Assembly (NCBI GenBank): GCA_001664505.1
Contig: CP011806.1
Coordinates: forward strand, 1,641,528-1,705,527
Length of the DNA stretch: 64,000 nt
Reading direction: 5' to 3'
Origin: Acidobacteria bacterium Mor1
GTDB lineage: Bacteria; Acidobacteriota; Polarisedimenticolia; Polarisedimenticolales; Polarisedimenticolaceae
Shown here: piece by piece, positions 1,312 through 54,753 of the stretch
Numbering within the stretch: the stretch's first letter is position 1
Layout: every line of letters begins with the position of its first letter
Notes under the pieces: generated by a model
The model's input: only the letters and a program-made list of their open reading frames with translations
Told to the model about the DNA's origin: nothing
Databases searched by the model: none
Program-made: the position numbers and the translations under genes

Positions 1312-3324
1312 ATGCGCAAACTGCTCATGAGCCTGCTGTTGGCCCTGCTGGCGACCCCGGGAATCCCGGCCCAGAGCGATGCCGACGCCTCACCCGGCGA
1401 CCGTCCCCCGCGGGATTCGGAGATCGTCGAGGAAACCGGGAGCTCCCTGCTGCAGCTTGACGTCACCGTCGACGGGCCGGAGGAGTTGATCAAGGGGCTG
1501 ACCAGCGGCGACTTCATCCTGAGCATCGCCGGCCGGCCGATTCATGAGTTCACCGTGGACCGCTTTTGCGCCGACCCCGCCGCCGCGCGGCGGGCGGCGG
1601 CCGCGACACAGGATCCGGAAGCATCGACGCCGAACGCCGAAATACCCGTCGCCAAACCGAGCTACGTCTTTTTCTTCGAGCAGGGATTGACCACCATGCG
1701 CGGCCGGCAGCAGGGGTACCACGTCGCCTCGGACATGATCGACGCCCTGATCGGTGACGGCGCCCGGGTCTCCATCGTCTCCAGCGGAAAGCGCTTCAAG
1801 AAGTTCGGCGAGTTCACCGACGACCCGATCAAAGCAAGGCAGGCGCTGGAGGCGATGATGGATGACCATCGCCACTGGGATCCCTACCTGGCCGAGGAGC
1901 GCGCGCGGCAGGGCCGGGTCAAGAGCACCCCCTGCCCGATGAAGCTCAGCCTGGCCAGCATGTACGCCCGGGAAGAGCAGGCGCGGGTCGAGCGGGGAGC
2001 ATTTCGTCTGGCGGCGACCATCGAAAGCCTCACCTCCGTCGACCCTCCCAAGGCGGTGTTCGTATTTTCCGACGCGCTGCGGGAGAAGGCCGGCTGGCAC
2101 TATCTGTCGGTCGCCGAATCGGCGTGCGGCCTGCCCGTCGACACCGTCTACTCGGAATTCGCCTTCGAGCGGCTGGTCGCCGCGGCGGCCGCACGTTCTA
2201 CCCGGCTCTACCCGGTCTACGCCCAGGGACTGACGGTTCAGTTCAACGACCCCGACGACCCCGGGATCTCCACGCTCCTGACCAGCCCGCAGAACACCGT
2301 GGCCCAGACCGAAGACACGCTGATCTCCATGGCGTTGGAAACCGGCGGCCAGGCCTTCGTCGGCGGCTTCAAGACCGACTACGCCATCGAACAGGTACAG
2401 AAAGACCTGGGCTGCATGTACCTGCTGAGCCTCGATCCACGGGGCCTGCCGTTGGACCGGCCGTTGCCGGTAACGCTCAATAGCGCCCTACCCGGAGTCG
2501 ACGTGCGCACCCGGGGGCAAGTCGTGGTCCAGAGCCGCAAGGCACGCCGGGAGGCGGAACTCACCGCCGAGTTCCTGGCCGCTCCCGACCTCAACGATTC
2601 GGCCCTCGGCCTCAGCGTCGTGCCGATCGAGTCGACCAAACGCGGGATCCAACATCTCGTCCAGGTCGTAGCTCCCGAGCGTGGCCGGTCGGGGGTCTGG
2701 GACTTCGGCATCACCATCAGCTCCGACAACGAGATCGTGCATCAGGTATCGGGCCGGTTGGAGAAGGTGCCGTCCCGCCGTCCGATCGTGATCGAGACCC
2801 TGGTAGACCTCGGGCCCGGCGAGTACGACTTCACCGTCCTGCTCACCGGGGTCGACACTCGGGAGCACCTCTCCGCCAAGTACCGGGAGGCCATCGAGCT
2901 GGATCCGCGCGACGCACTCATCCTCCCGAAGATCGTCGCCCAGCAATCGATCCGCGGAGTTTTCTGGCGTGATGGAGAGGTGCGAAACTCGGGCAGTCTG
3001 TTCTACGACCAGCTGGTCAAACTCAACTCAACCCAGCCGGTCACGCTGACGGCGCTGGTCTGCCGGCCGCTCAAGGACAAGGACGGTCCGGTTCTGCGAG
3101 CCGACCGGACCCTGCGGGGCTTCTCGATGGAGAAGGCCCCCCGCAGCGTCGAGGTCGATCTGACCCGGGACCACTGCGTCGCCTTCCGCGACATGGTGCC
3201 CAACTCCTGGATGAGCGAGGGGCCCTTCGAGATGTCGCTGTCCCTGCACGACGCGACGGGCGAACAGGTGCTCTCCCGCAGCAAGACCTTCATGATCGAG
3301 GACCGGCGCCCCAGCGCACCGTAG
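1312..3324 (+). CDS. VWFA-related secreted protein, copy 1 of a tandem pair
   Basis: The protein has 670 residues with a short signal peptide ending near PGIPAQS. A GGAGGAG ribosome site precedes the ATG. After a conserved beta region with LQLDVTVDGPEELI and GDFILSI blocks, a Rossmann-like domain (about residues 110-330) corresponds to the 'VWFA-related' domain common in Acidobacteriota. The usual metal-site DxSxS segment is altered here to an FEQGLTT sequence, so metal binding is doubtful. The second half is beta-rich with conserved Cys residues. It is strongly similar along its whole length to the next gene and is probably its tandem duplicate. It is likely exported to the periplasm or cell surface; its ligand is unknown. 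Confidence 0.8.
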   Translation: MRKLLMSLLLALLATPGIPAQSDADASPGDRPPRDSEIVEETGSSLLQLDVTVDGPEELIKGLTSGDFILSIAGRPIHEFTVDRFCADPAAARRAAAATQDPEASTPNAEIPVAKPSYVFFFEQGLTTMRGRQQGYHVASDMIDALIGDGARVSIVSSGKRFKKFGEFTDDPIKARQALEAMMDDHRHWDPYLAEERARQGRVKSTPCPMKLSLASMYAREEQARVERGAFRLAATIESLTSVDPPKAVFVFSDALREKAGWHYLSVAESACGLPVDTVYSEFAFERLVAAAAARSTRLYPVYAQGLTVQFNDPDDPGISTLLTSPQNTVAQTEDTLISMALETGGQAFVGGFKTDYAIEQVQKDLGCMYLLSLDPRGLPLDRPLPVTLNSALPGVDVRTRGQVVVQSRKARREAELTAEFLAAPDLNDSALGLSVVPIESTKRGIQHLVQVVAPERGRSGVWDFGITISSDNEIVHQVSGRLEKVPSRRPIVIETLVDLGPGEYDFTVLLTGVDTREHLSAKYREAIELDPRDALILPKIVAQQSIRGVFWRDGEVRNSGSLFYDQLVKLNSTQPVTLTALVCRPLKDKDGPVLRADRTLRGFSMEKAPRSVEVDLTRDHCVAFRDMVPNSWMSEGPFEMSLSLHDATGEQVLSRSKTFMIEDRRPSAP

Positions 3325-3442: not shown

Positions 3443-5458
3443 ATGAGACTGCGCCACCTGCTCGTCGTCTTCGCCTTTCTGCCCCTCGCCGCCTTCGGGC
3501 GCCCTGACGAAAAAGCGGTCCCCCAGCCGGTGGACAGCAAGCTTGTCGAGGAGGTCCAGCGCAAGTTGCTCCAGCTCGACGTCTCCGTCGACGGTCCGCC
3601 GGAGTTGATCGGCTCGCTGAGCGACGACGACTTCATCCTCAGCATCGCGGGCCGCCCGATCCACCGCTTCGAGGTGGACTCCATGTGCGCCCAGCCTCCG
3701 ACCTCCGCCACTGCGTCTTCGGATGCGGCCACGGACAGCGCTGCCGAGCAGGCGCCGCCGCTACCTTCGGCCTCTGCTACGGCTCTGCGACCCACCTACA
3801 TCTTCTACTTCGATCAATCGCTACTGACCATGCACGGACGGCAGCGTTCGCTGCATCTGGCTCAGGATCTGCTCGATTCCCTGTTGGTCCCCGGCGCCGG
3901 AGTATCGATCGCCTCCAGCGGCAAGCGGCTGAAGTTCTACGCCCGGGACACCGACGATCCCGACACTTTGCGTCAGGCCCTGATCACGATGATGGACGAT
4001 CATCAAAACTGGGACCCCTACCTCGTGGGGCAGTCGGCCGGCGCCGGGGATGTGAGTCAGACCACCGGAACCATGCGCCCAGAGGCAGCCTGTTGGGCGG
4101 CCTACGTCAACGCGCGCTACCTGGCCTGGGAAGAGGCCGAGGTCGTGGAGCGCTCCAGCTTCCGACTGTCTGCTGCCATCGAGGCCCTGGCGACCACCGA
4201 CCCGCCGAAGGCGGTGTTCTATTTTGCCGACGGTCTCCGCAAGCGAGCCGGGAGGCACTTCGTTCAACCTCTGGCCGACAAGTGCGGGATTCCCCTTTCG
4301 CAGGTGTGGTCCGAGTTCGCCTTGGAGCAACTCACGGCGACCGCGGCGACGTACTCCACCCGGCTTTACACCTTCCTTCCCGACGGCCTGCGCCGTGACG
4401 GCCTGCCCCTACTGGATCCGGCCAACAAACGAGCCGAGGCGGAAGACACCATCACCTCGCTGGCCCTGGAAACAGGAGGCCGTGCGTTCATCCAGGGCTA
4501 CAGCAACGCGTACGCCGTGGAACAGGTGAAGCAGCACCTGAGCTGCTTCTACCTGTTCAGCCTCGACGCCCGAGGCCTGCCCGTCGATCGTCCGTTGGGG
4601 GTCACCCTCAACACCACGATTCCCGGGGTCAAGGCGACCACCCGCGGGCTCGTGGTCATCCAGAGCGAATCGCAGCGGCGCCGTTCGGAGATCACCGCCC
4701 AATTCCTCAACCCACCCTCGGCCGAAGACTCGCCCCTGGATATCAGCGTCGTGCCGATCGAGACCGGGCGCAAGTCGTTCCAACATCTGATTCAGCTACG
4801 TTCGCTCTCTCGTCAGCGCGCCCGGGCCTGGGATTTCGGCGTCACGGTGATCCATCAAGAAAAAGTGGTCCATGAGGTTTCGGGACGGATCGAAGGAGCC
4901 CCCAGCGACGAACCGATGGTGATCGAATCGATGCTCCCGATGGAGACCGGCGAGTACGAGATCATCGCAGTGCTGGCGGAAGTCGATGGGCCGCAACGTC
5001 TCGGAGCGCGTCATCGGGAAACCGTCGAGGTCGATCCCCGGGACGCGTTGATGGTGCCGAAGATCGTGGCTCAGCAGCGGGTACGCGGCACCTTCTGGCG
5101 CGACGGCGAACTACGAGCCGGCGGCAGCCTGTTCTACGACCGCTGGGTCGAACTGCAGTCCCGGGCACCGGTGACCCTGACCGCTCTCGTCTGCAGGCCG
5201 GCGAAACAGGAAAGCGGCCCGGTGTTGAGGGCGGAGCGCACGCTGCGCGGCTTCTCGATGTCCAAACCGGCGCGGAGCATCGACGTGGACCTCCGCCGGA
5301 ACACCTGCGTCGCGTTCCGGGACATGGTGCCCAGTTCGTGGCTCAGCGAGGGCACCTTCGAGCTGGAGCTGGCGCTGTTCAGTGAAGATAACGAGCCGGT
5401 CGCGGCCGCTCGGCGCACGTTCCTGATCGAGGACCAGCGGCGGAGCGGGACACCCTGA
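3443..5458 (+). CDS. VWFA-related secreted protein, copy 2 of a tandem pair
   Basis: The protein has 671 residues, with a signal peptide of about 19 residues and a GGAGGG ribosome site six bases upstream. It has the same architecture as copy 1: an LQLDVSVDGPPELI and DDFILSIAGRPI block, an Ala/Ser/Pro-rich variable linker, a Rossmann-like VWFA-related domain and a long beta-rich C-terminal half. Long blocks such as LRGFSM and CVAFRDMVP are nearly identical between the copies. Unlike copy 1, the metal-site segment reads FDQSLLT, close to DxSxx(S/T), so metal coordination is more plausible. The gene ends 10 bp from the convergent membrane-protein gene. Confidence 0.8.
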   Translation: MRLRHLLVVFAFLPLAAFGRPDEKAVPQPVDSKLVEEVQRKLLQLDVSVDGPPELIGSLSDDDFILSIAGRPIHRFEVDSMCAQPPTSATASSDAATDSAAEQAPPLPSASATALRPTYIFYFDQSLLTMHGRQRSLHLAQDLLDSLLVPGAGVSIASSGKRLKFYARDTDDPDTLRQALITMMDDHQNWDPYLVGQSAGAGDVSQTTGTMRPEAACWAAYVNARYLAWEEAEVVERSSFRLSAAIEALATTDPPKAVFYFADGLRKRAGRHFVQPLADKCGIPLSQVWSEFALEQLTATAATYSTRLYTFLPDGLRRDGLPLLDPANKRAEAEDTITSLALETGGRAFIQGYSNAYAVEQVKQHLSCFYLFSLDARGLPVDRPLGVTLNTTIPGVKATTRGLVVIQSESQRRRSEITAQFLNPPSAEDSPLDISVVPIETGRKSFQHLIQLRSLSRQRARAWDFGVTVIHQEKVVHEVSGRIEGAPSDEPMVIESMLPMETGEYEIIAVLAEVDGPQRLGARHRETVEVDPRDALMVPKIVAQQRVRGTFWRDGELRAGGSLFYDRWVELQSRAPVTLTALVCRPAKQESGPVLRAERTLRGFSMSKPARSIDVDLRRNTCVAFRDMVPSSWLSEGTFELELALFSEDNEPVAAARRTFLIEDQRRSGTP

Positions 5459-11945: not shown

Positions 11946-13547
11946 ATGGGTCTCGTTCGCCACCTGCTCCCGGCACTGATACTCGTTGCCCTGGCACCGG
12001 CTGCCTCGGCTGCGGAGCTGGCTTCCGCCGACATCGCGGCCATGGATGCGACCCTGGCCGCAGGCAACGAGACCGACCGCCGCGGCACCATCGCCACCGG
12101 CGGCAACGGCCGCTGGATCGCCATCTGGCCGGTGGATTCGGACCTGGTGATCTCCCGCAGCGACGACCGGGGCAAGAGCTGGACGACTCCCCAGGCCGGC
12201 TTGCTCGGCCCCGGCTTTCGGCCGGCCCTGGCTTCCGACGGAAACGGCGCCTGGGTCGCTGTCTGGCAGGCGATCCCCGGAAACCTCGGCAGCGACATCG
12301 ACCTGTTCTCCTCGCGGAGCCTGGACAACGGCCTGACCTGGAGCGATCCGGTGGTGGTCAACCAGGGTGCCGAGACCGACGACGCCACCGACGACCCGCC
12401 ATCCCTGGCCACGGACGGCCGCGGCCGCTGGATCGCGATCTGGGCCTCGACCAACCCGATGGGGGGCACGGCGGGCAGCGACTTCGACATCTTCATCAGC
12501 CGCAGCGACAACTTCGGCGCAACCTGGGGACCGATGACGCCGCTGCGGGATACCAGCGACCCCGGCGGGTTCGCCGGTTTCGACCTGCGGCCCACCATCG
12601 TCGCCGATTCTTCAGGCACCTGGGGCGCCGTCTGGATCACCAACAACGACATCGACGGCACCATCGGCAGCGACCAGGACGTCGTCGGCACCTTCAGCCC
12701 CGACGGCATCAACTGGGAACCGGTGCGGGCGCTCAACCCCGACGCCCAGACCGATTCGGTCAGCCAGGCAGAGGCGAGCCTCGCCGGCGACGGCCGCGGC
12801 AACTGGACGGTGATCTGGAACGCCCCGGAGATCGTCTTCTGGTCGGTCTATGCGGCGACCAGTTCGGACAACGGCGCCACCTGGAGCGGAGGCAACGCGA
12901 TCCACCCCTCCTACTCCAACGGCGGCGTTTCCGAACCGCTGTTGATGCGGGACGCCCGGGGCAACTGGATCGCGCTCTGGAGCGCCTTCTCTGCAACGGT
13001 AGACTCGATCAACCTGGGCCAGGATTCCGACCTGCTGCTGTCCTACAGCCAGGATGCGGGGCAGACCTGGAGCCCGGTCGAGGTCTTCAACAGCAACGCG
13101 CGCTCCGATGACGGCGGCGACTTCGGTGCCGCCCTCGCCACCGACGGCGACGGCCAGTGGGTCGCTCACTGGATCTCACCGAGTACCTTCGGCGGAACCA
13201 TGGGCATCGACCAGGACGCGTTCTACGCGCCCTTCGGTTTCTGCGGCGGGATCGTCATCAGCCCGGACGCACCGACGGAGATTCGAGTGGTCCCGGACCT
13301 CGACGGCGGCAGCTTCGACCTGGTCGCGGGAGACCTGTCGGATCTCGTGGCCGATTCCGGCTTCGATTCCGCCGAGTGCCTCGGTTCCTTCGCCGTCAGC
13401 CCGGCCCAGGACCCGTCACCGGCTCCCACTCCGGGGAACGGGCGCTACTACCTGACCCGCGGCACGAGCGTGTGCGTCGACGGAGGCTACGGAGACTCGA
13501 GCCTGGATCCGGACGCACGAGACGATCTGGACACGATCTGCCCCTGA
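11946..13547 (+). CDS. Secreted sialidase-like protein with Asp-box repeats
   Basis: The protein has 533 residues. The start has AAGGAGGGG eight bases upstream and is followed by a clear signal peptide ending PAASAAE. At least five Asp-box (BNR) motifs of the S-x-D-x-G-x-x-W type are visible, for example SDDRGKSW, SLDNGLTW, SDNFGATW, SSDNGATW and SQDAGQTW. They are spaced by 'GNGRWIAIW' strands, as in a six-bladed sialidase-type propeller. The arginine triad of true sialidases is not obvious, so enzymatic activity is unproven. Residues 436-533 form a separate module ending in Cys that recurs in two other secreted proteins of this window. Confidence 0.8.
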   Translation: MGLVRHLLPALILVALAPAASAAELASADIAAMDATLAAGNETDRRGTIATGGNGRWIAIWPVDSDLVISRSDDRGKSWTTPQAGLLGPGFRPALASDGNGAWVAVWQAIPGNLGSDIDLFSSRSLDNGLTWSDPVVVNQGAETDDATDDPPSLATDGRGRWIAIWASTNPMGGTAGSDFDIFISRSDNFGATWGPMTPLRDTSDPGGFAGFDLRPTIVADSSGTWGAVWITNNDIDGTIGSDQDVVGTFSPDGINWEPVRALNPDAQTDSVSQAEASLAGDGRGNWTVIWNAPEIVFWSVYAATSSDNGATWSGGNAIHPSYSNGGVSEPLLMRDARGNWIALWSAFSATVDSINLGQDSDLLLSYSQDAGQTWSPVEVFNSNARSDDGGDFGAALATDGDGQWVAHWISPSTFGGTMGIDQDAFYAPFGFCGGIVISPDAPTEIRVVPDLDGGSFDLVAGDLSDLVADSGFDSAECLGSFAVSPAQDPSPAPTPGNGRYYLTRGTSVCVDGGYGDSSLDPDARDDLDTICP

Positions 13548-20301: not shown

Positions 20302-21711
20302 TCAGGTGCCGATCAGACCGAGCTCGGACAGACTCAGCGAGGAGTAACTGGGGAACACGGTGTCCGCGTTGGCCGGCAGCGCTCCCATGTGGTCCCTGAG
20401 AATCTCCCAGAACACTGCGCGGTAATCGGTGATCGTCTCGAGGTCGCGGTTGTCGTGGGCGAAGATGTCGCCGTTGGCCCAGTTGGAGCCGTCGGCGTTG
20501 TAGACCCCGCCGTTGACCGGGCCGCCGGCGGCGAACACGCAGGTCGAACCGCCGTGGTCCGTACCGAAGCTACCGTTCTCCCGCGAGGTGCGGCCGAACT
20601 CGCTCATGGTCACGGCCATGGTGTTTTCCCAGATGCTGGAGTAGCCCCGGGGCTCGTTGGTCGCGACCCCGCTGAGCGCGATCTGCACCGAACGAATGCC
20701 GTAGCCCAACACGTTGAGCCGATCCCGGTGCACTCCGGCAAGCTGGCCCTGGTTCTCGTGGTTGTCGAAGCCGGTGAGCTCGGTGCCGGCGATGCGGGTG
20801 CCGTTCAGCCCGTCCCCTTCGAGCAGCGAGAGCACGCAGACCTTCAGGGCGTTGAAGAACGGATAGAACGCGGCAGCGAACTTGCGCCCCCCGGGCCCCG
20901 ACGGATCCGCCGGGTTCGTCGCCGCAGACACCGGGAACAGGTACTCCCCGGTGTTGGGGTCGGTCGGATTCCAGTTGGTGTGATCCCAGGCAGCGTACTC
21001 GTCCAGCGTGTCCAGCAACTGGATCTCGGACGCCTGCAGGGCATCCCGGTACTTGGTGCCGTGAGGCAGCTGGGAATAGACGTCCCGCCAGCTCTGCTTG
21101 AACTTGTCGGAACGGGGCGGCTCGTAGGTGTAGTCGAACTGGTCCGGGTTGCGCACGTTGACGTGGTAGGGAGGCACGCCCCGCATCAGCACCCCGCCGT
21201 TGGGCGCGGTGAGCGCAGGCAGGCTCGCGTTGAGGTCGAGCCCTTCTTCGCGCATGTAGCGGTAGAGCCAGCCCTCGAACAGGAACGTGGGCTGGGTCGG
21301 ATCGCCGTTTTCCCAGATGCGCTGCCCGCTGAAGTGGGAGCGGCTCATGTTCTGGTAGCCGACCCGGTGAATCGCCGCCAGATCGCCGTCGTCGAACACC
21401 TTCTTCAGGTCGTCGAGGGCCGGATGGAGCGAGGCGAAGCCGTTCCCCAGGTCGATGGCATCTCCCGGAGGAACGTAGAGCGTGGGCCGGTTCACGGCGT
21501 TGTACGCGGAATCGCCGTGGGGAATCAGCGTGTTGACCGCGTCATTCCCGCCACGGAGGAAGATGAACAGCAGGCGCTTGTCTTCATTGGCCGCCATCGC
21601 CTGGCGCACCAGCGGAGTCGGAATCAGCGACGCCGCTCCCAGGCCGGCCAGGGTCAGGCCGGACTTGTGCAAGAACGCACGTCTCGAACAATCGGCACAG
21701 TGGTCTTTCAT
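20302..21711 (-). CDS. DUF1501 protein with Tat signal
   Basis: The protein has 469 residues. The N-terminus has a twin-arginine motif SRRAFLHKSG followed by a hydrophobic stretch ending AMAANE, so it is exported folded by the Tat system. The body has the DUF1501 pattern: LLFIFLRGGNDAVNTLIPHGD, a HRVGYQNMSRSHFSGQRIWE block, and a late SEFGRTSRENGSFGTDHGG motif. That motif resembles the metal-binding site of sulphatase/alkaline phosphatase relatives. It starts 10 bp after the DUF1800 stop with an AGGGGG ribosome site. DUF1800 and DUF1501 genes are a common conserved pair of unknown function. Confidence 0.9.
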   Translation of the reverse strand: MKDHCADCSRRAFLHKSGLTLAGLGAASLIPTPLVRQAMAANEDKRLLFIFLRGGNDAVNTLIPHGDSAYNAVNRPTLYVPPGDAIDLGNGFASLHPALDDLKKVFDDGDLAAIHRVGYQNMSRSHFSGQRIWENGDPTQPTFLFEGWLYRYMREEGLDLNASLPALTAPNGGVLMRGVPPYHVNVRNPDQFDYTYEPPRSDKFKQSWRDVYSQLPHGTKYRDALQASEIQLLDTLDEYAAWDHTNWNPTDPNTGEYLFPVSAATNPADPSGPGGRKFAAAFYPFFNALKVCVLSLLEGDGLNGTRIAGTELTGFDNHENQGQLAGVHRDRLNVLGYGIRSVQIALSGVATNEPRGYSSIWENTMAVTMSEFGRTSRENGSFGTDHGGSTCVFAAGGPVNGGVYNADGSNWANGDIFAHDNRDLETITDYRAVFWEILRDHMGALPANADTVFPSYSSLSLSELGLIGT

Positions 21712-21721
21712 CGGTGGCCCC

Positions 21722-23560
21722 CTACTGTTCCAGGAACTGTTTGAATCCCATCATGAAACCGACGGTCTCGCGGACGCGCTCGTCGGTATACGGAGAAGGG
21801 ACACCCGAATCATCGGTATTGAGGTAATCGAGCGCGACCTGGCGCTCGAACGGCGTCATCTGCCCTCCGAACAGAACGTCGGCAAAGAAGTCGACGATCT
21901 CCTCGTCCGTGGTGAGGCTGTATTCGGAGACCATCAGGTTGATCTCCTGGGCGTAGCTGGCGTTGAGCACGATGTCCATGCCGTAGTCCTGGCGATCCAG
22001 CTGGGCGTTGGTGCCGAGCCAGTCCCCACCGGACTCGGAGTAGCCGGTGGGAATCGGGTTGCGGAACGGTAGCTGCCCCATGCGGTTGATCCAGTTGCGC
22101 AGGAACGGCGCGATGAACGATTGCAACAGCCCTCGCGTGGCCCGGTACCCGGTCACGCCCTGCTCCCAGGGTGTCTTCAGCTTCTGACCGACGAAGTCCG
22201 GGTTCAGCACGTTCGCTTCCGAGAGCACGGCGCGCAGGATCTCCCGGTTGTCGCCGTTGTGCAGCGTCCAGGCGTCGACGACCCCTTGCACCATCTGCGG
22301 CGTCGGATCCTCGACGATGAAGCGCCGGAGCAGCTTCGTCGCGATGAACTCCTTGGTCGCCGGATGATCGGCGATCGTATCGAGCGCCAGCTGGATGTCG
22401 TTGATCCCGTCGGCCGGATTGCCCGACGTATCCGGGATGATCGTCTCGTAGGCCGTACCGGCAAACAGAATCTTCTGCCCGGTGTCGTGCTCGTTGGAGC
22501 GGAAGTTCGTCGCGCGCTGTCCCGCGGCGTCGTTGGCGATGCAGGGAGCCGTCGGGTTGTCGATGTCGGCCAGCGCCTTGTTGCACACGTTCCAACCGGT
22601 CAACACCCGGGACAGTTCCTGAACGTCCGCCTCGGTGTAGCCGTTGTCCACGCCCATCGAGTGCAGTTCCATCAACTCCCGAGCGTGGTTCTCGTTGGGC
22701 CGGTCCTTGGTGTTGATGTTGGTATCGAGGTACAGGATCATCGCGGCGCTGAGCGCACTGGCCTCGAGTATCTCGCGGAAACTGCCGTAGAAGGCCAGAT
22801 CACGGAAAGCGTCCATCTCACGCTGCTGCATCTGGGCCGTGCGCAGGTTGCGGTCCGCCGCCGCTCCCGGGGTGTTGTCGTAGACCTTGCGGAACTCGGT
22901 GTTGAAGTGGTTGAACCAGAACTCGGTGGTGTGGTGCTGCAGTTGCCGCAGCGAGTAGATGCTCTCGTCCAGCAGGCGGTACTGCAGATACCCCTCGTTG
23001 ACCGGCGGATCCCAGCGAGTCCAGAGCTGTGCCCGGGAATCGCCACTCTCGTCGATCGTCAGCGGGTCGAGCTGTTCGTCGCGGTACGCCGTGAAGCCCA
23101 GGGTCTGCAGGCGGTCCCGTCCCCACTCGCTCCAACCGTATCCCAGCCGTTGCAGCACGTGGTGGAACATCACCGCGTCGCACTTGCCCAGGGACTCCCG
23201 CTCGACCGCGTCGGAATCGGTGCCGAGGGTCCCCTCCTCGTCGGTCGCGTTCTCCGCCGACAGCAGGTAGACGTAGACCTCTCCGACTTCGGGGGCCGCT
23301 GATGAGACGACGCTGGTGCCGACCACCTCGTCGACGTGGCAGCGAGGCGGGTTGCCCACCTGCAGGTCGCGCAGCAGCCCACGGTAGACGTTGTAGTCCT
23401 GGGCAGTGACCGTGGCGTCCCAGCTCAGGGTCGAGCTGTCGCTGAACTGAACGTTCAGCACCTCCGCCGGCGGAGCGGCAGCGGCGCTGCCTGCCCATAC
23501 CGCGCACCACAAGACGGACGTGACCAGGAGCGCGGCTCCCGGCCGTGACAGAGTTTTCAT
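21722..23560 (-). CDS. DUF1800 protein with an extra N-terminal secreted module
   Basis: The protein has 612 residues. The ATG is preceded by AGGGGGACCC and starts a signal peptide ending GSAAAAP. Residues 34-127 form a Cys-bracketed module absent from ordinary DUF1800 proteins but similar to the C-termini of the sialidase-like and PD40 proteins here. The DUF1800 part follows, with HHVLQRLGYG, FWFNHFNTEF, and the hallmark block NENHARELMELHSMGV and GYTEADVQELSRVLTGW. Its function is unknown. It is paired with the Tat-exported DUF1501 gene and transcribed from the promoter at 23701-23730. Confidence 0.88.
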   Translation of the reverse strand: MKTLSRPGAALLVTSVLWCAVWAGSAAAAPPAEVLNVQFSDSSTLSWDATVTAQDYNVYRGLLRDLQVGNPPRCHVDEVVGTSVVSSAAPEVGEVYVYLLSAENATDEEGTLGTDSDAVERESLGKCDAVMFHHVLQRLGYGWSEWGRDRLQTLGFTAYRDEQLDPLTIDESGDSRAQLWTRWDPPVNEGYLQYRLLDESIYSLRQLQHHTTEFWFNHFNTEFRKVYDNTPGAAADRNLRTAQMQQREMDAFRDLAFYGSFREILEASALSAAMILYLDTNINTKDRPNENHARELMELHSMGVDNGYTEADVQELSRVLTGWNVCNKALADIDNPTAPCIANDAAGQRATNFRSNEHDTGQKILFAGTAYETIIPDTSGNPADGINDIQLALDTIADHPATKEFIATKLLRRFIVEDPTPQMVQGVVDAWTLHNGDNREILRAVLSEANVLNPDFVGQKLKTPWEQGVTGYRATRGLLQSFIAPFLRNWINRMGQLPFRNPIPTGYSESGGDWLGTNAQLDRQDYGMDIVLNASYAQEINLMVSEYSLTTDEEIVDFFADVLFGGQMTPFERQVALDYLNTDDSGVPSPYTDERVRETVGFMMGFKQFLEQ

Positions 23561-23700
23561 GGGTCCCCCTGCTCGCCGCCACGCGGATCGCGGCCCGGCA
23601 ATCGGCAGGCACATGCCCGATGCGGCATGAGCCGACTCGGCAGAGCGGGACAGATGGATCCGCCGCGATGGCCCCCCCATGCGCTGGCGGCTACCTGCCG

Positions 23701-52146: not shown

Positions 52147-54753
52147 ATGCGACGCTACCTCGTAGCCCTTGCTGCCGCTCTGCTTCTGACCGGCACCGCC
52201 ACGGCCCAGACCGTGCGCCAGATCACCGACTTCAAGAACGACCTGGCGGGCCCTCCGGTGCTCGACGACGCCGGCGCCTTCGTCTACTGCGGCGCATCTC
52301 CGGACCTGCTCGGCCAGAACGGCGACCACGCCTACCAGATCTTCCGCTTCAACGCGGCGGACGGCAGCGCCGAGCAGCTGACCGACGTCGAAGGGGGCGT
52401 TTCTCCGGTGGTCAGCGTCAGCGACGACGGCGTGTGGCTGGCGTTCGCCTCCCCCGCCGACCTGACCGGCGGCAACCCGGACCGCAGCATCGAGGCCTTT
52501 GCCCGCCGGGCCGACGGCAGCGAAACCGTACAGCTGACCGCGAACGACGCCGTCAACGCCGGCAACGTGAGCCAGGTGGTCCTCTCCGGCGATGCCGGCA
52601 AAGTGCTGATGCTCGGCCGTATCGATCCCCTGGGCACCAACGCCGGCCTCGAACCCCAGCTGTTTCTCGTCGACCGGGACGGTTCGAACCTTGTGCAGCT
52701 CACCACGATCACCACCGGCTCCTTCGGCGCCATCAGCATCAGCGATGACGGCACCCGGATCGTCTTCGGCCACAACGCCGACCTGACCGGCGGAAACGCG
52801 GACCTGGGGAGTGAGGTCTTCGCCATCGACCCAGACGGTACCAACCTGCGGCAGCTGACCAACGTGCCGGTGGACTTCGGCGCGACCGCTCCGGTGCTCT
52901 CGGGGAACGGCGTGCGCATCGCCTTCCAGACCTCGGCAAACCTGACCGGCGGCAACGGGAACAACCAGACCGAGATCCACGTCGTGGACTGGGACGGCAC
53001 CAACCTGCGCCAGGTGACCAACACCGTTGCGGTGTTCGGATTCGCCGGCGACCCGTCGTCCCAGCTGCCCTCGATCACCGACGACGGCAACAAGGTCTTC
53101 TACTTCTCCAACTACAACTCGATCTTCATCAACCTCGACGGTAACTTCGAGATCTTCAGCGAGAACGTCGACGGTTCCGGCCTCGATCAGGTCACCTCCA
53201 ACTTCCTCTCGGCGGGAAGCCTGCTCCCCATCGTTTCCGGTAACGGCAACAGGGTGACCTACTACTCGGTGGGGGACAGCATCACCCTGGACGTGGCCAC
53301 CGGCACCGGCGGCTCCGACCAGAGCCTGTTCCCCTTCGTGCTGCAGCTGACCGGCGACCCCGCCCTGGCTCCCGACGGCAGCCGGGCGCTGTTCACCCAG
53401 ACCCCCGACCCGCTGTTCGGCAGTTCTGCGCTGTGGAAGGTCGAGGCGGACGGCAGCGGCGTCAGCCTGGTCACCGCCACAGACCTGGGCTCGGTCTCCT
53501 CGCCGGAGTTCGCCGGCGACGCGGAAACGATCGTTTTCTCGGCCAACGGCGATCCGTTGGGGCTGAATCCGGACACGGTCAGTCAGATCTTCCGCATCCA
53601 GCAAGACGGCACCGGCCTGCAGCAGCTGACCAGCGGCGGCGCCGACAGCTCCTCGAGCAACCCGGCGATCTCCGATGACGCTTCGCGGATCGTGTTCGAC
53701 TCCAACGCCGACCTGACCGGCGGCAACGCGGACCTCTCCCGGGAGGTCTTCGCCATGGACGCCGACGGCATGAACCTGGTGCAGCTCACCGCCGGCATTG
53801 TCGATACCAGCAGCCGCCGGCCGCGGATCGACGCCACGGGCACCTGGGTCGTGTTCGAATCCAACGCCGACCTCGACGGCGGCAACCCCGACGGCAGCTT
53901 CGAGGTCTGGCGGGTACAAAGCAACGGCACCGGCCTCGAGCGGTTGACCAGCGACCCGGCGGCGGGCTCCGGCGGACCGGATATTTCCGACGACGCCACG
54001 GTGATCAGCTACCAGAGTTCCGCCGACCCGACCGGCGGCAACGCCGACGGCAACAGCGAGATCTTCGCCTACCGTCCGGCCACCCTGAGCACCCTGCAGC
54101 TCACCAGCACCAGCGAGGGGAACAGCGGCGGCGCCCGGCTCAGCGGCAACGGCGCCTGGGTCTGGTTCTCCTCGGATGCCCCGATCGCCGAATCGGACGC
54201 AGACACTCCCACCGACCTGTACCGGGTCCCTGCGGCCGGAGGCACCATCGAACGGGTCGGCGCGCTGCGGGCCGGCGTCCTGGGCGGGGTGCTGCCCATC
54301 GACCTGGGCGGCGGCACGGCGGTCTCCGCCGACGCGGCGGGCGAACGTGCGCTCTTCAGCGGCATCGGGGACTTCACCCAGGCAAACCGGGACCTGCTGG
54401 CGGAACTGTGGCTGATCGACCGGGCCGACACGCCGGTGTTCACCGTGGGCAAAGCGGACCCGACGGTCCTATCCTGGACCCACGGTTCAGGACCGATCCG
54501 CTACGACGTGATCCGCGGAGACGTGGCCAACCTGGCCGCCGGCGGCGACCTGGGCGCGGTGACCTGCCTCGAGGAGGACTCCCCCGAGGCCTCCACCGAG
54601 GGCTTCGGCGACACCCTGCAGCCGACGCCGGGACAGGTGTTGTTCTTCCTCTACCGCGGCAGCGAGGGGTTGAACGCGGGACCGGGTTCCTACGGCCAGG
54701 CCAGCGACGGCTCGACGCGCACTCCGGCGTCCGGCGGCTGCGTCGACAACTAG
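52147..54753 (+). CDS. Secreted PD40/TolB-like beta-propeller protein with C-terminal module
   Basis: The protein has 868 residues. GGGGGGA precedes the ATG, and the signal peptide ends GTATAQT. Residues of about 25-760 contain at least nine PD40-like units, each with 'SDDGTRIVFGHNADLTGGN' type strands and a following S/E-V/I-F. Six units carry the loop A-x-x-x-G-G-N, for example ADLTGGNADL and ADLDGGNPDG. A domain with two propellers is likely. Residues 765-868 are a different module (VLSW, YDVIRG, Cys, YRGSEG, GSYGQASDG, final Cys) shared with two other proteins here. It should be cell-surface or periplasmic; its ligand is unknown. Confidence 0.85.
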   Translation: MRRYLVALAAALLLTGTATAQTVRQITDFKNDLAGPPVLDDAGAFVYCGASPDLLGQNGDHAYQIFRFNAADGSAEQLTDVEGGVSPVVSVSDDGVWLAFASPADLTGGNPDRSIEAFARRADGSETVQLTANDAVNAGNVSQVVLSGDAGKVLMLGRIDPLGTNAGLEPQLFLVDRDGSNLVQLTTITTGSFGAISISDDGTRIVFGHNADLTGGNADLGSEVFAIDPDGTNLRQLTNVPVDFGATAPVLSGNGVRIAFQTSANLTGGNGNNQTEIHVVDWDGTNLRQVTNTVAVFGFAGDPSSQLPSITDDGNKVFYFSNYNSIFINLDGNFEIFSENVDGSGLDQVTSNFLSAGSLLPIVSGNGNRVTYYSVGDSITLDVATGTGGSDQSLFPFVLQLTGDPALAPDGSRALFTQTPDPLFGSSALWKVEADGSGVSLVTATDLGSVSSPEFAGDAETIVFSANGDPLGLNPDTVSQIFRIQQDGTGLQQLTSGGADSSSSNPAISDDASRIVFDSNADLTGGNADLSREVFAMDADGMNLVQLTAGIVDTSSRRPRIDATGTWVVFESNADLDGGNPDGSFEVWRVQSNGTGLERLTSDPAAGSGGPDISDDATVISYQSSADPTGGNADGNSEIFAYRPATLSTLQLTSTSEGNSGGARLSGNGAWVWFSSDAPIAESDADTPTDLYRVPAAGGTIERVGALRAGVLGGVLPIDLGGGTAVSADAAGERALFSGIGDFTQANRDLLAELWLIDRADTPVFTVGKADPTVLSWTHGSGPIRYDVIRGDVANLAAGGDLGAVTCLEEDSPEASTEGFGDTLQPTPGQVLFFLYRGSEGLNAGPGSYGQASDGSTRTPASGGCVDN

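Follow-up and report, generated by a model that had tools for sequence, protein, structure and literature searches.

An uncatalogued FN3-like domain ending exported proteins of Acidobacteria bacterium Mor1, a possible class-wide address tag

Host proteins and shared segments in the window

The window analysed here, a stretch of 64,000 nucleotides from the genome of Acidobacteria bacterium Mor1, encodes three exported proteins whose main parts belong to the Pfam families PD40, BNR_2 and DUF1800 (Table 1). The PD40 protein starts with the signal peptide MRRYLVALAAALLLTGTATAQ, and the DUF1800 protein has its likely start at position 23560 (MKTLSRPGAALLVTSVLWC...). Each of the three carries a segment (the "module") that is covered by no Pfam or NCBIfam model. 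A preliminary description of this DNA had proposed that the three segments share one pattern; this is confirmed, and all three segments lie in the window where they had been placed. In the PD40 protein the mid cysteine and the final cysteine of the module are followed by VDN and the stop codon, and the sialidase-like protein (SIA) terminates with ...TICP-stop. The opening of the pattern had been described as LSW or a variant; in SIA, IRV replaces LSW and the conserved tryptophan is missing. Of the two placements described, C-terminal and N-terminal, the former is the rule, and the position in the DUF1800 protein is an exception representing a minority variant.

Table 1. Module-bearing proteins and their modules in the window
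Feature	Position	Strand	Details
PD40/TolB-type beta-propeller protein, exported (host 1)	52147..54753	+	868 aa; PF07676 E 4.8e-10
FN3-like module, C-terminus of PD40 protein	54427..54750	+	residues 761-868; profile E 2.7e-30
BNR-repeat sialidase-like protein (SIA), exported (host 2)	11946..13547	+	533 aa; PF13088 (BNR_2) E 1.2e-10
SIA module, C-terminal	about 13254..13544	+	E 8.2e-9, profile built without SIA segment
DUF1800 protein, exported (host 3)	21722..23680	-	PF08811 E 5.5e-86
DUF1800 module, N-terminal, immediately past signal peptide	23180..23470	-	E 9.3e-17, profile built without DUF1800 segment

Two other sites in the window deserve mention. The DUF1800 gene with the module is followed immediately downstream by an ORF at 20302-21711 (minus strand), encoding a protein with a Tat-like signal that we take to resemble DUF1501; a DUF1800/DUF1501 gene pair is the usual arrangement. 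At 1312-3324 and 3443-5458 (plus strand), two adjacent genes encode paralogous exported proteins of about 670 aa each, with the common pattern IAGRPIHEF and ETGGQAF/ETGGRAF, which resemble the VWFA-related proteins common in Acidobacteria.

Size, anatomy and kinship of the family

Pairwise comparison of the three segments gives an uneven picture. The similarity between the PD40 and SIA segments is clear (none of 5000 shuffles scored as well), that between the PD40 and DUF1800 segments is suggestive (p = 0.007 in the shuffle test), and that between SIA and DUF1800, aligned alone, is not significant against shuffles. The genome, a single contig of 5.985 Mb with 99.98% completeness, provides many more sequences. 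Used as a single query, the PD40 module returned 61 matches, namely itself (E-value = 1.4e-70) and 60 further places. A profile (A1) built from an alignment of 23 genome copies, from which the SIA and DUF1800 segments had been left out, recovered both held-out segments genome-wide (E-value = 8.2e-9 and 9.3e-17, respectively). The DUF1800 segment was likewise matched by hhalign with a probability of 98.4 (pairwise E-value = 5.9e-15). The mutual profile similarity, whose absence would have spoken against a common module, is thus present. The A1 profile finds 126 places in the genome at E<1e-3, a lower bound as 150 of the 281 candidate places were scored. The sharing by three proteins is therefore real, but its scale had been greatly underestimated: the shared segment is one uncatalogued FN3-like domain with at least 126 copies in this genome.

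The non-significant alignment between the SIA and DUF1800 segments might suggest that acidic, glycine-rich secreted proteins have merely converged, by chance or shared composition, on a loose pattern without common descent. We consider this practically negligible in view of the held-out E-values, the near-invariant Cys, Trp, Pro and Arg columns across 68 copies (see below), and the lack of any match to the module in 148 genomes of another phylum, that of a Kapaibacterium metagenome-assembled genome (MAG). Chance similarity is ruled out by the held-out profile search.

The module is about 95-105 residues long. An alignment of 68 copies yields the consensus LSW...YDVxRGxLxxL...C...D...P.xG.gFFYLVR...G.G..G..S.G..R....CP, in which the mid cysteine is conserved in 67/68 copies and the final cysteine in 67/67. 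The tryptophan of the B-strand is found in 63 of 66 copies, and further columns are dominated by a proline (65/68), a leucine (62/68) and an arginine near the end (60/67). The mid cysteine stands just past an insert that follows the C-strand, and its probable partner is found where the domain ends. Since two equally conserved cysteines bracket the second half of the module, they probably form a disulphide.

The suggested resemblance to fibronectin type III (FN3) domains is supported by profile comparisons and not by the standard models. Scanned singly against Pfam and NCBIfam at E<=1, the 23 copies gave nothing but single insignificant hits, and none of them matched PF00041 (fn3). The fn3 model itself hits 26 places in the genome, including a run of ten domains in one 2935-residue frame, and none of these places coincides with a module. 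In hhalign comparisons with a set of eight FN3-like domains taken from other phyla (PF00041 matches six of them, five above the cut-off, and misses two), the module scored a probability of 96.5 with the A1 alignment and 97.5 with the A6 alignment. A sequence profile search of the PDB returned four hits at E<=10, the best being an "Fn3-like protein" (3mpc, E-value = 0.0063), followed by chitinase A1 (1k85, 0.037), 5g56 (0.18) and 4k4k (1.7). AF2 models of the module, computed from nine sequences, are of low confidence (pLDDT 58.8 and 54.7), with some strands in a compatible order. With these models, Foldseek found nothing significant, and the best neighbours in VIA, residues 20-96 of PelI and an Fn3 domain of Tie1, reached non-significant Z values of 3-4. 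The assignment of the fold therefore rests on the sequence profiles, the predicted models being too weak to prove it. The LSW of the B-strand, the Y-x-V of the C-strand, the Y-x-V-R-A-x-N of the F-strand and the following G-x-S of the module all align with PF00041. In contrast to that family, the module has an extra segment past strand C and a conserved pair of cysteines, is strictly terminal and usually present in a single copy, and escapes recognition by the model. These profiles place the module, by descent, among the divergent members of the FN3 superfamily and outside the curated PF00041 family.

Placement, hosts and distribution

In 106 of the 126 copies no more than 25 residues separate the module from the stop codon, and in 112 no more than 60. 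As controls for placement we used 104 coding-like ORFs. A cysteine occurs among the last four residues in 95 of the 106 C-terminal copies against 2 of the 104 controls, and the protein ends exactly in Cys-Pro in 62/106 against 1/104. A signal-peptide-like start is found in 108 of the 126 hosts and 56 of the 104 controls, by a crude and permissive rule for which the difference alone counts. The same was seen for 40 copies drawn from 18 other genomes, of which two lie outside the class: in 39 the protein stops no more than three residues past the module, and 38 have a cysteine in the last four positions. The idea that the module invariably closes exported proteins thus stands for about 84-89% of the copies in this genome and for 39/40 elsewhere. 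A handful of proteins have internal copies, and in three DUF1800 paralogues and a few other proteins the module immediately follows the signal peptide. Several of these N-terminal modules are the nearest relatives of each other, so they may possibly serve a distinct use. There is nearly always one copy per protein, a single protein having two.

Three hosts, at genome positions 3534687, 3531848 and 3720349, continue past the module with a further C-terminal part of about 140 residues. These parts have a common pattern (D-Y...G-T/V-V-x-G-T...D-D-x-x-Q...L-E-H-x-W) and perhaps represent another uncatalogued end domain.

The remaining parts of the hosts match 67 Pfam families, and those listed are nearly all extracellular repeat or beta types, with TSP3, MopE metal-binding, beta-helix, Kelch, BNR, PD40, FG-GAP and PKD in the lead. 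Of 2604 pairs of modules aligning over 70 residues, 253 have hosts that are detectably similar outside the module as well, and several pairs are 44-56% identical on hosts without detectable similarity elsewhere. Since similar modules sit on hosts with no detectable mutual similarity, the module has the character of a domain shuffled between proteins, and the description of it as mobile is borne out. Two related hosts, at genome positions 4503464 and 5706607, have 101-aa modules that are 100% identical, which suggests a recent duplication or gene conversion.

The module is present in all 21 genomes of a closest-relatives set (the present one included), with 6 to 138 copies each. A survey of 297 genomes of the phylum (E<1e-5) found it in 34/34 genomes of the class and in 13 of the 263 others. 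When the consensus was used as a probe, clear members among the named relatives came only from Acidobacteria MAGs, the relatives elsewhere being fn3 domains; no clear member was found in viral contigs and plasmids. A contig of 3.7 kb that had been assigned to a Euryarchaeota MAG has a module-like fragment at positions 3045-3194; this contig is probably acidobacterial and mis-binned. Searches of the open-access literature returned no description of the module. A class-wide domain of more than 120 copies that has no Pfam or NCBIfam model conceals the way in which these bacteria assemble their surface and secretome.

Possible roles of the module

An address tag would be expected to look like this: a single folded domain at the end of over 100 exported proteins that are not related. 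We give an even chance to the reading that the module is a folded, disulphide-closed C-terminal tag for export or surface display, and the data suggest a tag of this kind throughout the class, previously undescribed. The earlier suggestion of an anchoring or sorting signal is thus still the leading reading, as a proposal. Within this genome and across the whole class, the module has spread to well over 100 exported proteins that are otherwise unrelated. According to the tag scheme, each host would cross the inner membrane by Sec, and the tag would then fold and be closed by a putative disulphide in the periplasm. A periplasmic or outer-membrane partner, presumably part of an export machine, might recognise the folded tag and bring the host protein to the cell surface or release it from the cell. 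A candidate for this machine is a type II-like secretin system.

By analogy, the logic of such a tag would be that of the C-terminal domain (CTD) of type IX secretion, without the type IX system. The type IX CTD is processed by PorU after export. It is a C-terminal Ig-like beta-sandwich acting as an outer-membrane export signal (PMC4804311). Like the module, it is a C-terminal domain of beta-sandwich type with about 80-100 residues, attached to many unrelated Sec-exported proteins in one lineage. In contrast, the module has two conserved cysteines and some N-terminal copies, and matches no NCBIfam tag model: the sorting-domain models of the type IX CTD kind gave no hit among the 23 copies at E<=1. 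Across nine genomes of the class, the present one among them, nothing exceeded the cut-off of the SprA model (TIGR04189), with a positive control at 911.6 bits. The absence of SprA from these nine genomes and the lack of a model match rule out that the module is a type IX CTD.

The MYXO-CTERM tag is TM-tailed and thus other in kind than the module (PMC11980579). The MYXO-, PEP- and GlyGly-CTERM tags are, like the module, C-terminal tags on dozens of unrelated exported proteins, and MYXO-CTERM has an invariant cysteine as well. However, those tags consist of a short motif, a transmembrane helix and a basic tail, whereas the module is a whole folded domain. No hydrophobic tail or basic residues were found past the module, the protein ending 0-25 aa later in 106 of the 126 copies. 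A TM-tailed sorting tag is ruled out by the lack of a hydrophobic tail.

Several observations count against an address tag. N-terminal copies (DUF1800 and a few others) and internal copies occur, and FN3 domains often serve as spacers or binding domains. The module could be an accessory domain with no role in export, which caps and stabilises the C-terminal end of its host or binds polysaccharide, matrix or substrate. The same N-terminal and internal copies would be natural for such a domain, multimodular carbohydrate-active enzymes are a source of some of its PDB relatives (1k85 of chitinase A1, 5g56), and most of its hosts are of the beta-propeller, beta-helix and TSP3 types, for which a cap may be necessary. 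Accessory FN3 domains are, however, usually arranged in tandem or inside proteins, while the module is single and terminal in most hosts; on balance we see an accessory role as a serious possibility, but one to which the smaller part of our expectation goes. It is improbable that the module is an anchoring or processing tag, removed or covalently linked after export, with the terminal Cys(-Pro) in the recognition site. The near-invariant terminal cysteine and the 62 of 106 C-terminal copies ending exactly in Cys-Pro would suit such a site, but the equally conserved mid cysteine (67/68) fits a simple disulphide, the missing hydrophobic tail and basic residues set the module apart from the MYXO-, PEP- and GlyGly-CTERM tags, and a module ahead of DUF1800 cannot be cleaved as a C-terminal tail.

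Returning to the address tag, a stronger proposal would be a route of export or display of the lineage's own, in which an FN3-derived, disulphide-closed C-terminal address is read by an undescribed outer-membrane machine serving more than 100 proteins per genome. We put this forward tentatively and regard it as rather unlikely. Were it real, the route would be a functional counterpart of type IX secretion made from a different domain. As an address tag, the module would define much of the lineage's exported proteome from sequence alone, and would offer a ready localisation label leading to the secretion machine. If it is no more than an accessory domain, it would still name a part of dozens to more than 100 poorly annotated proteins per genome.

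A precedent for an FN3 domain in secretion is provided by the pectate lyases PelI/Pel3, in which the loop joining Fn3 strands C and C' is a key signal for type II secretion; export takes place in the folded state, disulphides included (PMC7949064). The extra segment of the module follows the same strand C. In both cases an Fn3 domain ends an exported enzyme, and in PelI/Pel3 the loop past that strand is the secretion signal. The PelI/Pel3 domain differs in being N-terminal, restricted to a single protein family and devoid of a terminal cysteine.

GspD-like secretins occur in each of the 20 genomes tested, module-free ones included, and none scores over the GspD cut-off. The secretins whose neighbourhood was read belong to a type IV pilus, a Tad-type system and two further GspE/secretin clusters. 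Being present in module-free relatives too, the secretins single out no machinery. One secretin, encoded at about 491210-493768 of the genome (plus strand), has an N-terminal TPR and a C-terminal cohesin domain (PF00963, E-value = 3.7e-6), and adjoins GspF-, GspE- and PilM-like genes. This cohesin-bearing secretin is a possible candidate for the gate of exported surface proteins.
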